Of a stretch of 56,071 nucleotides of DNA, positions 15,889-50,645 are shown piece by piece. The stretch is taken from NCBI RefSeq assembly GCF_005404945.1, contig NZ_BJDG01000024.1, forward strand, positions 1-56,071, read 5' to 3'. A program made the position numbers and the translations under genes. Under the pieces are notes generated by a model, which saw only the letters and a list, made by a program, of their open reading frames with translations, searched no databases and was not told where the DNA came from. This DNA comes from Lactiplantibacillus pingfangensis (lineage in GTDB: Bacteria; Bacillota; Bacilli; Lactobacillales; Lactobacillaceae). The first letter of the stretch is position 1, and every line of letters starts with the position of its first letter.

Positions 15889-16008
15889 CCACAACCGACT
15901 AAAACGATTACAGTGTCTCTTAGGTATCAAGATTTTCTCTAAATTCATTCCAGATAGGTCATTCATTCTAATTTTCCGCTTACTAATTGATTAGTGACTA
16001 GCGGTTAA

Positions 16009-16175
16009 TTCCCGCCTACCGGGGGCTTCGTTTGGGGCTGGAACGCCATGAACCATTTTTGAGCCAAAAAGCGGTCTCAAAAGCTGGTTTTTGACTAACC
16101 GCGGACACCCTCCCCGCGCTAAGTCAAGCGCCACGGCTGAGCCCCAAACAAAGCCCCCTCACGGCTAGAGATGTG
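16009..16175 (-). repeat. Intergenic repeat copy A, module 1 (long stem with two inner hairpins)
   Basis: About 165 bases, some 90% identical to 33183-33348. Outer arms GGGGGCTTCGTTTGGGGCT (16021-16039) and 16140-16158 pair over 19 bp, with one C/A mismatch on the plus strand that becomes a U-G pair on the minus strand. Inside are two hairpins: AACCA...TTTTGAG with CTCAAAA...TGGTT, and TTGACT...CGCGG with CCGCG...AGTCAA. No open frame was accepted. The rest of the 1.1-kb gap 15853-16983 holds modules 3, 2 and 0 of the same repeat and unassigned sequence. Confidence 0.85.
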
Positions 16176-16435
16176 TATTATTTTAAAGTTACCAGTTGCC
16201 TAAAGAAACTATTCAGATGGCCACCTGTCGAACTAGTGGCCGCATCAACGTAGATCCGTCCAGAAGTAGTACTTGAGTGGTTACTTTTAACTTCTTTTAG
16301 AACAACTCAAATTTCTGGCGGTAAAGATTTGATTAGCATCAGAGGTGAAGGTTGAAAGAACAAATGAGCTCGTAACCACTCTCATACAAGCAACAGGCAC
16401 TCTCAAATTAGTGAAGGCCCGCTCCGGCAGGCAGA

Positions 16436-16505
16436 AATCGCTGTGCTATGGTGGGACAATCGCAGCCATAGTGCGGGGCTGCAACTTCGACACAGCACAA
16501 CGATT
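16436..16505 (-). repeat. Intergenic repeat copy A, module 3 (70-base hairpin)
   Basis: Minus-strand arms AATCGTTGTGCTGTG and CATAGCACAGCGATT pair over all 15 positions with two G-U pairs. The inner stem is GCAGCC/GGCTGC. On the minus strand the ends match the ends of 37053-37210 read on the plus strand (AATCGTTGTGCTGTGTCG at the 5' end and TGTCCCACCATAGCACA at the 3' side). Confidence 0.8.
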
Positions 16506-16548
16506 ATCTCCGCTAAATCCTAACCTAAAAACAGTCAAATTAGCTGGA

Positions 16549-16722
16549 AGTCGCCGCTGATCCCATCGGTCGTGACTGTGGCGTTAGGTCGGCATATTTC
16601 TTGCCGGCGTTACGCTACGGACGGTCCGGGACACTTGCGATTTATGCAAGGGTTCCGGGCGAGGGCCAAGACGTTCCTCAGGCTTGAACCGGTCCCACGA
16701 CCGCATGTTATCAGTGGCGACT
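16549..16722. repeat. Intergenic repeat copy A, module 2 (multi-branched palindrome)
   Basis: Outer arms at 16549-16574 and 16696-16722 pair (AGTCGCCGCTGAT with ATCAGTGGCGACT, then CATCGGTCGTG with CACGACCGCATG). They enclose three hairpins, for example CTTGC/GCAAG around a 7-base loop. It is homologous to 33737-33906, where the outer arms differ in sequence but still pair. On the minus strand it is bounded by CTTCCAG on both sides, at the point where copy C has a single CTTCCAG. Confidence 0.82.
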
Positions 16723-16835
16723 GGAAGCGGAACTATCAACTAATTTCCATGCCCTAATCATTCACATGGCAATAGTTATTAGCAAGTTTGATTTTTCAAC
16801 CGTTAGATCAGAGTAATAAACTTTAATCAAACGCC
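16723..16835 (-). repeat. Intergenic repeat copy A, module 0
   Basis: On the minus strand this reads with clear similarity to 36907-37014 on the plus strand: GGTTGAAA, TTGCTA, TGCCATGT, GATTAGGG, ATTAGTTGA and GCTTCCAG occur in the same order. It links copy A to copy C. Confidence 0.7.
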
Positions 16836-16924
16836 GACAACAATTGTCATTCAAGATTCGATTACTTCATTATACGATATGACTACCGGCTAATAACTAA
16901 TCACTTGAACATTATATTTTTTCG

Positions 16925-33095: not shown

Positions 33096-33182
33096 TTATC
33101 AATAACCATTATACAAAAGCCTTAATTCCGCAAGTATCAAGTTTTTCTCGGCTTTCTTTGAAATCATTGTTGGGTGGCTCGA

Positions 33183-33348
33183 TTCCCGCCTACCGGGGGC
33201 TTCGTTTGGGGCTGGAACGCCATGAACCATTTTTGAGCCAAAAGGCGGTCTCAAAAGCTGGTTTTTGACTAAGCGCGGATAAATCACCGCGCTAAGTCAA
33301 ACGCCACGGCTGAGCCCCAAACGAAGCCCCCTCACGGCTAGAGACGTG
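33183..33348 (-). repeat. Intergenic repeat copy B, module 1
   Basis: Near-identical to 16009-16175. The 19-bp arms at 33195-33213 and 33313-33331 are perfectly complementary, and the inner TTTGACT...GCGCGG hairpin has a single mismatch. The gap 33054-34136 otherwise holds modules 3 and 2 and diverged sequence; I see no gene that I would defend there. Confidence 0.87.
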
Positions 33349-33596
33349 GAATATTTTAGTACCAACCAAAAATCTTGATCAACTGCCGACTGAACTAATC
33401 AGCAGTTAAAAGTAATCATCCTCAATAGACCAGTCACCATTCGCAACGCTAGAGCACCTATCAGTTATTGATACAACCGCAAATCTTGATGGGCTAGTGA
33501 TATTGTAATAGCCAGATTGCTTAACTCCTCAAAGTTTAGCGTACAAAATGAGTCATGAACAAGATCATATCAGCAATTGTCGCTCCCAAACTAAAT

Positions 33597-33665
33597 TCGT
33601 TGTGCACTGCAAGACAGCTCCAGCCATAGGGCGTTCTAGGGCTTCGATTAAAAGGCGATTGAATC
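33597..33665 (-). repeat. Intergenic repeat copy B, module 3 (degenerate)
   Basis: Diverged match to 16436-16505: on the plus strand CGTTGTGC, CAGCCATAG, GCG and CTTCGA occur in the same order and similar spacing. The arms pair poorly, so this copy is probably decayed. Confidence 0.55.
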
Positions 33666-33736
33666 GTCCTGTAAGATGATTAGGCAGCTATAGTCTACTA
33701 ACTTTCTAACTGTCTCCACTAAGCTTAATAACTGAA

Positions 33737-33906
33737 GGTTGGGACTGATAACATCGGTCGTGTCGGTGGCGTTACATCGGCTGTTTTTGCCGACGTTACA
33801 CCACGGACGGTTCGGGACACTTGCGCATTTGGCAAGGGTTCCGGGCGAGGCCCAAGACGTGCTTGGCTTGGGCCGGTCCCACGACCGCATGTTATCAGTC
33901 CCAACC
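33737..33906. repeat. Intergenic repeat copy B, module 2
   Basis: Outer arms 33737-33762 and 33880-33906 are complementary over 26 positions with one bulged G. Inside are a GTGG...TCGGC/GCCGA...CCAC hairpin, a CTTGC/GCAAG hairpin and a perfect GGCCCAAG/CTTGGGCC hairpin. It is homologous to 16549-16722 with compensatory changes in the outer stem. Confidence 0.85.
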
Positions 33907-34069
33907 GGAAGTGAAAGCTGTAATAAAGTTGTTTGATCCTTTAGCTTTTCACGCCATTTTATATGTGCTAACTCAATTAGAAACGAAGGGACTTCAATCT
34001 CAACCAATCTCCCTACCGAGAAAAATTTCACACTAACCTTAATTCCGACGACAAATCACATTTTTTCGC

Positions 34070-36906: not shown

Positions 36907-37052
36907 CAAAGCTTTATCTCATATAATTAGTCAGATAAAGGTTGAAAGGCAGTAATTGCTAGCAATTACTGCCATGTCAACGATTAGGGTATAAAGATTA
37001 GTTGACATGGCAGCTTCCAGCTAATTTAATTGTTTTTTAGGTTTAGCGTAGG
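36907..37052 (+). repeat. Intergenic repeat copy C, module 0 with competing hairpins
   Basis: Contains CTTTATCT/AGATAAAG (36912-36940), a perfect 26-base palindrome (36948-36973), and a 13-bp perfect stem (36969-36981 with 37001-37013). The last two share ACTGCC, so only one can form at a time. The order of sequence blocks matches the minus strand of 16506-16835, except that module 2 is missing exactly at GCTTCCAG|CTAATTT. Confidence 0.75.
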
Positions 37053-37210
37053 CAGACAGAATCGTTGTGCTGTGTCGGTAAGATTGGTCGGCGTTTTTGG
37101 CCGCCTAATCTTGCAGGGCGATTTAAAGACGTGGGTTATCGGCTTTGAATCGAAGTTCCAGACCGCTTTTTGGCTGGGACTGTCCCACCATAGCACAACG
37201 ATTCTGACTG
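37053..37210 (+). repeat. Intergenic repeat copy C, module 3 (long hairpin with inner stems)
   Basis: Arms at 37053-37074 and 37189-37210 pair over 22 positions with one mismatch and one G-U on the plus strand. Inner stems are GTAAGATTGGTCGGC (37078-37092) with 37100-37114, and AGTTCCAG (37154-37161) with CTGGGACT (37174-37181). G-U pairs on the plus strand would be A-C mismatches on the minus strand, so plus is the likely RNA strand. Confidence 0.8.
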
Positions 37211-37263
37211 ACGGAGCGCTTACCACGATAGTGATTTTCGTCCTTCAATCTTTAGCTAGTCAG

Positions 37264-37316
37264 AACAAAATAGACGTTGACAACTCGGATTTACCGTTGT
37301 CAGCGTCTATTTTGTT
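37264..37316. terminator. Bidirectional terminator, ABC exporter operon and copy C repeat
   Basis: Arms 37264-37284 and 37296-37316 pair over 21 positions with one mismatch; A and T runs lie at both ends. Confidence 0.8.
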
Positions 37317-37343
37317 GCACAAACTTTAGGGACTTAGCACGCC

Positions 37344-50073: not shown

Positions 50074-50160
50074 GGAGAGTTGGCAGAGTGGTAATGCACC
50101 GGACTCGAAATCCGGCGAACCGGCTAATACCGGCGCGCAGGTTCAAATCCTGTACTCTCC
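50074..50160 (+). tRNA. tRNA-Ser (anticodon CGA)
   Basis: An 87-base class II tRNA. Acceptor stem GGAGAGT/ACTCTCC, anticodon stem CCGGA/TCCGG with loop CTCGAAA (anticodon CGA), long variable arm, and T-arm around GGTTCAAATCC. CCA is not encoded (the next bases are TTA). It reads UCG codons. Confidence 0.96.
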
Positions 50161-50645
50161 TTAAATTCATGTTAATTATCTTTTCAGAACGTCGCTAATC
50201 GTTGATTTAACGGCGTTTTTATTTATTTTAAAACGCTCTTGAACGCTCTAAAACGATTTATTGGTGCACTCAGGATAAAAATTCATTCACTTTGACCAAT
50301 TTTTAAACACAATCACCTAGGCGGGCAAGTACATATATTATAGTTTTAAGAACATATATCATAAATACGAATTTTTTTAATTTTATACCCGGCTGTGCAC
50401 ACGCTTTACGGTATTATAATAAATGAGAGAAACTGAGGTAGTGGAGTACGAGGCACTGGCCCTAGACATAAACAAAAAAGTCCTCAAGATTTAGGCCTAA
50501 CTAGCTTAAACTTCATCATTACACTGATAAGCATAGCTTGGTCAAACTGGGCCTATCAAGAACACTAGTTAAGGACAAGACTGAATTACTTCACGTACTG
50601 CCGTAATATCAAGTCACCTATTCAAATACAATTGGAGGTAATCTG
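50161..50645 (+). other. Gene-poor stretch after tRNA-Ser
   Basis: Holds a probable tRNA terminator (AACGTCG/CGGCGTT then TTTTTAT, about 50188-50225), a direct repeat ACGCTCT...ACGCTCT (around 50234-50252), and an isolated TATAAT (50415-50420). The TATAAT could start the transcript of the 29-codon gene at 50646. A TAGGCC/GGCCTA stem lies in that putative leader. I see no integrase or other gene. Confidence 0.5.

Follow-up and report, generated by a model that had tools for sequence, protein, structure and literature searches.

What are the related stretches of palindromic sequence that lie in three gaps between genes of Lactiplantibacillus pingfangensis? The window that we analyzed, 56,071 nucleotides of contig NZ_BJDG01000024.1, holds them as copies A, B, and C. 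A first-pass annotation described a single modular repeat present three times, complete in copy A, which might be either a structured RNA or a non-autonomous mobile element. We mapped four segments, named M0, M1, M2, and M3, via iterated profile searches and built two covariance models, R1 from M1 and R2 from M3. The repeat is real: modules were found at all three sites, M1 is common to copies A and B (93% identical), and the flank segments reappear on the opposite strand in copy C (M0 at 36954-37020, and M3). Its RNA-folding z-scores (-9.96, -8.51, and -8.12) and the many profile matches elsewhere in the genome indicate that it did not arise by chance, and the family is larger than first described. 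The view of a single repeat in three copies was rejected, since two distinct element families are present and are nested in copy B; nor is copy A complete, as its M3 is truncated and it consists of M1 plus a second element. We read the window copies as transposable elements that are non-autonomous and belong to two kinds, MITE-1 and MITE-2, whose terminal inverted repeats we call TIR1 and TIR2. The features are as follows.

15920-15939, + strand: weak, TIR1-like end (4 mismatches) belonging to copy A's M1 element
16008-16183, module strand -: module M1 of copy A (R1 match at 16009-16173, 172.1 bits, E 7.7e-48)
16338-16344: left target duplication of the copy A MITE-2, ATCAGAG
16345-16806, - strand: MITE-2 of copy A, TIR2 ends with 2 and 3 mismatches
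16420-16490, - strand: truncated module M3 of copy A (R2 match at 16421-16518, 26.1 bits)
16553-16728, + strand: module M2 of copy A (profile match; models R1 and R2 match on +)
16720-16786, - strand: segment M0 of copy A (profile match)
16807-16813: right target duplication of the copy A MITE-2, ATCAGAG
33121-33129: left target duplication of the copy B MITE-1, CTTAATTCC
33130-34037, - strand: MITE-1 of copy B, enclosing a MITE-2; TIR1 ends alike at 15/20 positions, exact 9-bp duplication
33182-33356, - strand: module M1 of copy B (R1 match at 33183-33346, 187.6 bits, E 2.7e-52)
33527-33944 (approximate), - strand: inner, old MITE-2 of copy B; TIR2 degenerate, ends placed by eye
33582-33736, - strand: degenerate module M3 of copy B (R2, 23.6 bits; profile match at 33592-33709)
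33733-33911, + strand: module M2 of copy B (R2, 53.5 bits; R1, 48.1 bits; profile match at 33741-33911)
34038-34046: right target duplication of the copy B MITE-1, CTTAATTCC
36928-36934: left target duplication of copy C, TAGTCAG
36935-37255, + strand: MITE-2 of copy C, without M2; TIR2 mismatches, 4 and 3 at its two ends
36954-37020, + strand: segment M0 of copy C (profile match)
37046-37218, + strand: module M3 of copy C (R2 match at 37047-37217, 189.7 bits, E 1.7e-41)
37257-37263: right target duplication of copy C, TAGTCAG

The window copies are 321-908 bp long and contain no listed ORF of more than 127 aa, so no transposase gene lies inside them; two listed ORFs, one of 127 aa (33648-34031, -) and one of 99 aa (37030-37329, +), overlap modules. 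At copy B, the inner MITE-2 splits an arm of MITE-1, and since the two pieces align to almost contiguous parts of the same arm at locus L042, where it is unbroken, MITE-2 is nested in MITE-1 there. The MITE-2 of copy A is likely nested in the M1 element as well, although a comparison of the arm pieces of copy A with M1-only arms gave no match. A second TIR1 for the M1 element of copy A was looked for, and none was found.

MITE-2 consists of segments M0, M2, and M3 and is 374-541 bp long. The end of the stretch that follows M3 is reverse-complementary to the head preceding M0, forming the inverted repeat CTRAAGGTTGAAAG (TIR2), which is present at both ends of 31 of the 123 elements mapped in this genome. 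A TIR2 pattern search returned 83 sites, with 0 in the reversed control. By the duplication score applied, 16 of the 31 TIR2-paired elements have a target duplication (200 shuffles of partners gave 0.93 on average and 3 at most), and those of MITE-2 measure 8-10 bp. A TIR2 pair also bounds a 1.46-kb stretch elsewhere in the genome (C2:121196-122655) that encloses a transposase gene split over two frames. The pieces matched NF049925 (IS4 family) with E values of 1.8e-75 and 1.9e-45, of which only the first reaches the curated cutoff, and the larger piece was matched in 7 of 21 genus genomes, in some of them marginally. Open frames of ~460 aa flanked by the same TIR2 ends are present in G013, G004, and G001, with duplications of 9 bp in G013 and 7 bp in G001, and a more distant copy on a Limosilactobacillus plasmid has similar ends and a 9-bp duplication. 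Because TIR2 bounds IS4-family genes both here and in relatives, MITE-2 carries IS4-family ends; judging from the shared ends and the duplications, it is very probably moved in trans by an IS4-family transposase. With inverted repeats, target duplications, and ends shared with an insertion sequence, MITE-2 fits the description of a MITE. It resembles the IS4-family insertion sequences (NF049925) in its TIR2 ends and in their duplications of 7-9 bp, but it shares only the ends with them and at 374-541 bp is too short for a transposase gene. TIR2 pairs were present in just 3 of 40 loci of relatives, ends plus a duplication around 24 twinned modules of other genomes gave one weak match, and a search for the IS4 protein gave no match in G002, G010, G012, or G020 despite many M2 copies there. 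Since TIR2 pairs and duplications are rare elsewhere, the mobility of MITE-2 is evident mainly in this genome. ORFs adjoining the IS4-family copy (L142, 434-1597 and 7-288) resemble what we take to be an IS110-type transposase and an IS21-type helper.

MITE-1 carries M1 and ends in GTTAGTGTNAAATTTTTCTC (TIR1), unlike the ends of MITE-2. Both TIR1 ends were found around several M1 copies. The exact 9-bp duplication of copy B is accompanied by imperfect ones, seen by eye, in a few others. Sites matching TIR1 with up to 2 mismatches numbered 16 in the genome and 1 in the control, whereas sites with 3 mismatches showed no excess (39 versus 39). Several searches for an autonomous insertion sequence with TIR1 ends found no partner, and IS66, considered as a candidate, was rejected, as the IS66-bearing locus L166 contains no TIR1. 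At L143, position 2052 (C11:68551 of the same genome), a TIR1 end with 1 mismatch was seen with no module found alongside; it is perhaps a deleted MITE-1.

The genome contains at least 123 mapped elements in 110 stretches, window included. DNA searches with copies A, B, and C returned at least 72, 68, and 62 matches, respectively, in this genome. Few candidates were scored per genome (about 40 in each DNA search and 11 or 7 in the searches of the family and class), so copy counts are lower bounds. Profile matches in 109 loci plus the window came to at least 40 for M1, 101 for M2, and 43 for M0, and to at least 108 for M3, many copies of which were counted on both strands. Segments found together usually stand in the order M0, M2, M3, M1 when read on the strand following the upstream gene; lone modules and partial sets are common among the 123 elements.

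Folded as RNA, M1, M2, and M3 each form a branched module of ~165 nt in which a long stem closes two or three arms. Among 49 M1 sequences (alignment A2: 18 sampled copies from this genome and 31 rows from relatives), 96.5% of cells were paired (77.1% when shuffled and at most 48.3% when slid), 33 of 51 pairs showed double changes, and 472 cells were doubly changed, versus 136 in shuffles. The corresponding values were 97.1% paired, with 97 versus 25 doubly changed cells, for the 31 M3 sequences (A3: 18 sampled copies from this genome, the one in the window, and 12 of 15 rows from relatives, three repeats having been dropped) and 95.9%, with 217 versus 47, for the 57 M2 sequences (A1: 26 of the 81 full-length copies of this genome and 31 of 33 rows from relatives, two repeats having been dropped). 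The first 43 R1 matches, aligned to the covariance model's own structure (A4), gave 96.1% pairing and 605 versus 167 doubly changed cells. These compensatory changes exceed both controls, where the shuffles are uncorrected for relatedness by tree and the slid controls favor a structure drawn from the same set, and they predict a structured RNA. Models R1 and R2 match each other's copies, and both match M2 on the opposite strand; thus, the three modules belong to one superfamily. A hairpin, AGAC...GGCT with one A left unpaired, is common to M1 and M3, and these letters are invariant in 49/49 and 31/31 rows. Among the checks proposed in the first-pass annotation, the covariance analysis showed strong compensatory change, and copies were found far beyond these loci. 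Of its two suggestions, structured RNA or mobile element, a mixture is supported, with covarying structures that match no Rfam family for the former and inverted ends and duplications for the latter. MITE-like elements with a conserved, structured cargo are well supported in this genome.

No known family was found to account for the modules. Rfam 15 gave no match in the window at gathering score besides a tRNA (50074-50161, +) and only weak, sub-threshold matches over copy A; in five other loci, the sole match at gathering score was a T-box leader (L038, 3977-4222, +) away from modules. A known Rfam family was rejected on these grounds. In the openly accessible literature, judged by titles and abstract openings, no description of this superfamily was found, and the passages of PMC2267715 and PMC8632094 do not concern it. 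The nearest kinds in the cited passages of PMC2229807 are RUP, CIR, ERIC, and NEMIS. RUP of Streptococcus pneumoniae is similar in that it occurs between genes in about a hundred copies and has the ends of a resident insertion sequence, and it is a MITE thought to be moved by IS630-Spn1; it is 107 bp long with no structure motif reported in those passages (PMC2229807), whereas MITE-2 has 374-541 bp, covarying branched modules, IS4-type ends, and duplications of 8-10 bp. CIR of Caulobacter and Brucella (~110 bp, with GANTC sites and of unclear mobility) is likewise an intergenic repeat conserved between species, and the RNA proposed for it consists of a linker between two arms (PMC2229807); here, in contrast, each arm is a multibranched module of ~165 nt, and this genome provides element ends as well as duplications. 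ERIC and NEMIS/Correia are also MITE-like and structured as RNA, and the reported effect of ERIC on mRNA depends on orientation, but they are described as 107-155-bp stem-loops formed by their own ends, without twin multibranched modules (PMC2229807). REP and other palindromic repeats share the many intergenic palindromic copies, but REPs are described as 20-40 bp long (PMC3733652), compared to ~165 nt for the modules.

A strand that acts as a folded RNA should tolerate G-U pairs above A-C mismatches. Using pairs obtained by folding both strands, and excluding pairs with wobble as the commonest type, we counted 52 G-U to 13 A-C for M3 and 41 to 24 for M1 on the module strand, and 88 to 22 in a set from other genomes whose alignment had been fitted to that strand. 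For M2, whose module strand was set by homology, the counts were 42 to 55 and leaned to the other strand, which agrees weakly with M2 pointing the opposite way. Because G-U exceeds A-C on the module strand of M1 and M3, this asymmetry hints at an RNA role and suggests that the cargo functions as RNA; the excess could also come from single-stranded DNA. The modules also outlive their carriers. Median pairwise identity in the 13 copies of this genome with an intact M0 was 0.92 for M2, 0.92 for the linker, and 0.91 for M3, with 0.70 and 0.79 for the 5' and 3' flanks. In 10 copies without M0, the values were 0.865, 0.727, and 0.866 (flanks, 0.44 and 0.54), and in 13 xiangfangensis-type loci they were 0.835, 0.646, and 0.784 (flanks, 0.37 and 0.42). 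Old copies thus have modules that are 78-87% alike and ends that have decayed, and therefore selection on the modules, or conversion between them, is needed.

We think it probable that two kinds of MITE carry covarying twin modules. MITE-2, with its IS4-type ends, would be moved by the transposase in trans. The interior of both kinds consists of branched modules from a single superfamily, mostly as a back-to-back pair facing outward, and the paired shape is kept via compensatory change across species and genera and outlasts the carrier ends. The likeliest reason, although a tentative one with less than even odds, is that the modules work as folded RNA within transcripts that pass through the element or leave it; the folded RNA would protect or insulate neighboring transcripts and so make insertions tolerable or useful.

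Purely selfish MITEs, with DNA palindromes kept by template switching or conversion between copies and no RNA function, are a somewhat unlikely alternative. They would be compatible with module sets that resemble each other most within one genome and with the lack of a clear promoter: mid-twin promoters gave no clear signal, whether up to 3 mismatches (24/48 versus 46% of shuffles) or up to 2 (7/48 versus 6.8% of shuffles) were allowed, and a hybrid promoter at the TIR1 end was found in 4/19 cases versus 23/95 at control offsets. They would also fit the copies of G015 (L239, L240, and L245-L250), in which the outermost ~15 bases form perfect inverted ends within each of 8/8 copies and differ between copies; these ends behave as a closing helix would, and no convincing duplication was found at them. 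Correction of this kind, however, is not expected to favor G-U over A-C on the module strand of M1 and M3. The unpaired A and hairpin letters, invariant in every M1 and M3 row, and the likeness of modules, and not of linkers, in old copies also speak against this reading.

The first-pass annotation placed each of the three copies behind an upstream gene's 3' end, and all in the same sense (genes which it named, and which we presume to be, rbfA, tsf, and a HAD gene). This holds for the window copies and for the elements that carry M2 or M0, where, with genes called via a simple longest-ORF rule, the upstream gene lies on the same strand in 81 of the 99 with an upstream gene called, and tandem contexts are in sense by 41 to 8. 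It fails for M1-only elements, of which 9/20 have the upstream gene in the same sense and 11/20 lie in divergent gaps; across all M1 elements, the gene on the 3' side is codirectional in 32/38. The sense bias, and the conservation of modules inside decayed carriers, would suit 3'-UTR elements that the host has domesticated to stabilize, process, or terminate the mRNA of the upstream gene, a role also proposed for ERIC and NEMIS. We regard this as rather unlikely. Terminator-like hairpins precede 11 of 35 MITE-2 heads (7/350 in shuffles), so many copies may sit outside the upstream transcript; the divergent M1-only copies do not fit; and the contexts of twins in other genomes (10 convergent, 13 tandem, and 3 divergent) are also expected from plain promoter avoidance.

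A search of Lactiplantibacillus genomes, proposed in the first-pass annotation, showed modules beyond the window: at the DNA level, M1 is in 9 and M2 in 11 of 21 genus genomes. Within the family, R1 matched 67 of the 251 genomes searched, and these belong to 12 of the 40 genera; among 378 genomes drawn from the class, the sole match was L. pingfangensis itself, and at least 2 other family members in that draw had no R1 match. The nearest relatives, G001, G002, and G010, yielded no modules across the ~36-38 kb that match, and among the matching stretches of ten relatives, modules occurred only in G005 (4 matches) and G017 (3 matches). The gap at copy A is ~1,130 bases here, compared to 215 in G002, 181 in G001, and 1.6-2.1 kb in three other relatives, and that at copy C is ~470 bases, compared to 155 in G001 and 76 in G010. 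Adjacent module pairs in other genomes, taken from the best-scoring matches and not from a random sample, point outward in 27 of 29 cases and inward in 0, the other two lying in one four-module locus. In 12 loci of genus relatives (L178, L189, L191, L194, L197, L199-L201, and L203-L206), M1 occurs as outward pairs on opposite strands, arranged as M2 and M3 are. It is possible, and we propose it with reserve, that these modules make up a family-wide class of ~165-nt structured RNAs in the Lactobacillaceae, arranged as outward twins, carried as functional cargo by different MITE vehicles, and selected as RNA after the vehicle has decayed. Such a class would be an abundant superfamily of structured repeats, without an Rfam 15 match, in a food and probiotic group, and would explain many long unannotated gaps in these genomes. 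A mobile vehicle that can be separated from an independently conserved, structured cargo would also make RNA-based retention of bacterial MITEs testable.

Other transposons encode RNA at their ends, which the outward twins recall, and the RNAs might serve the mobile element, for example, as a guide or cofactor for transposition. We consider this very unlikely: IS4-family transposition is not known to need RNA, single modules exist, and modules persist where ends have decayed.

A DNA search of phage and plasmid records with copy A gave no match. A related module of another species is present in 25 plasmid records, of which 22 are typed mobilizable, and absent from the phage records searched. 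In the four plasmid stretches viewed, the neighbor of the module is a metal-type P-type ATPase gene (two) or an ABC transporter gene, which the module precedes (one), and the fourth module lies among hypothetical genes and IS30 copies. Signals in single-stranded DNA (lagging-strand, plasmid single-strand, or transfer origins, for example) would fit both these records and the strand asymmetry, but with the module away from replication and mobilization genes in all four stretches and with about a hundred chromosomal copies in this genome, we consider them very unlikely. In G139 (L225, 2930-3095) and in plasmid loci L266 and L268, the module lies immediately before the P-type ATPase gene; the ATPase of L266 and L268 carries a heavy-metal translocating annotation and has genes for thioredoxin and a metal-sensitive regulator in its neighborhood, and ORFs of G139 resemble these metal genes by eye. 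A mobile metal operon common to G139 and the plasmids may have carried the module.
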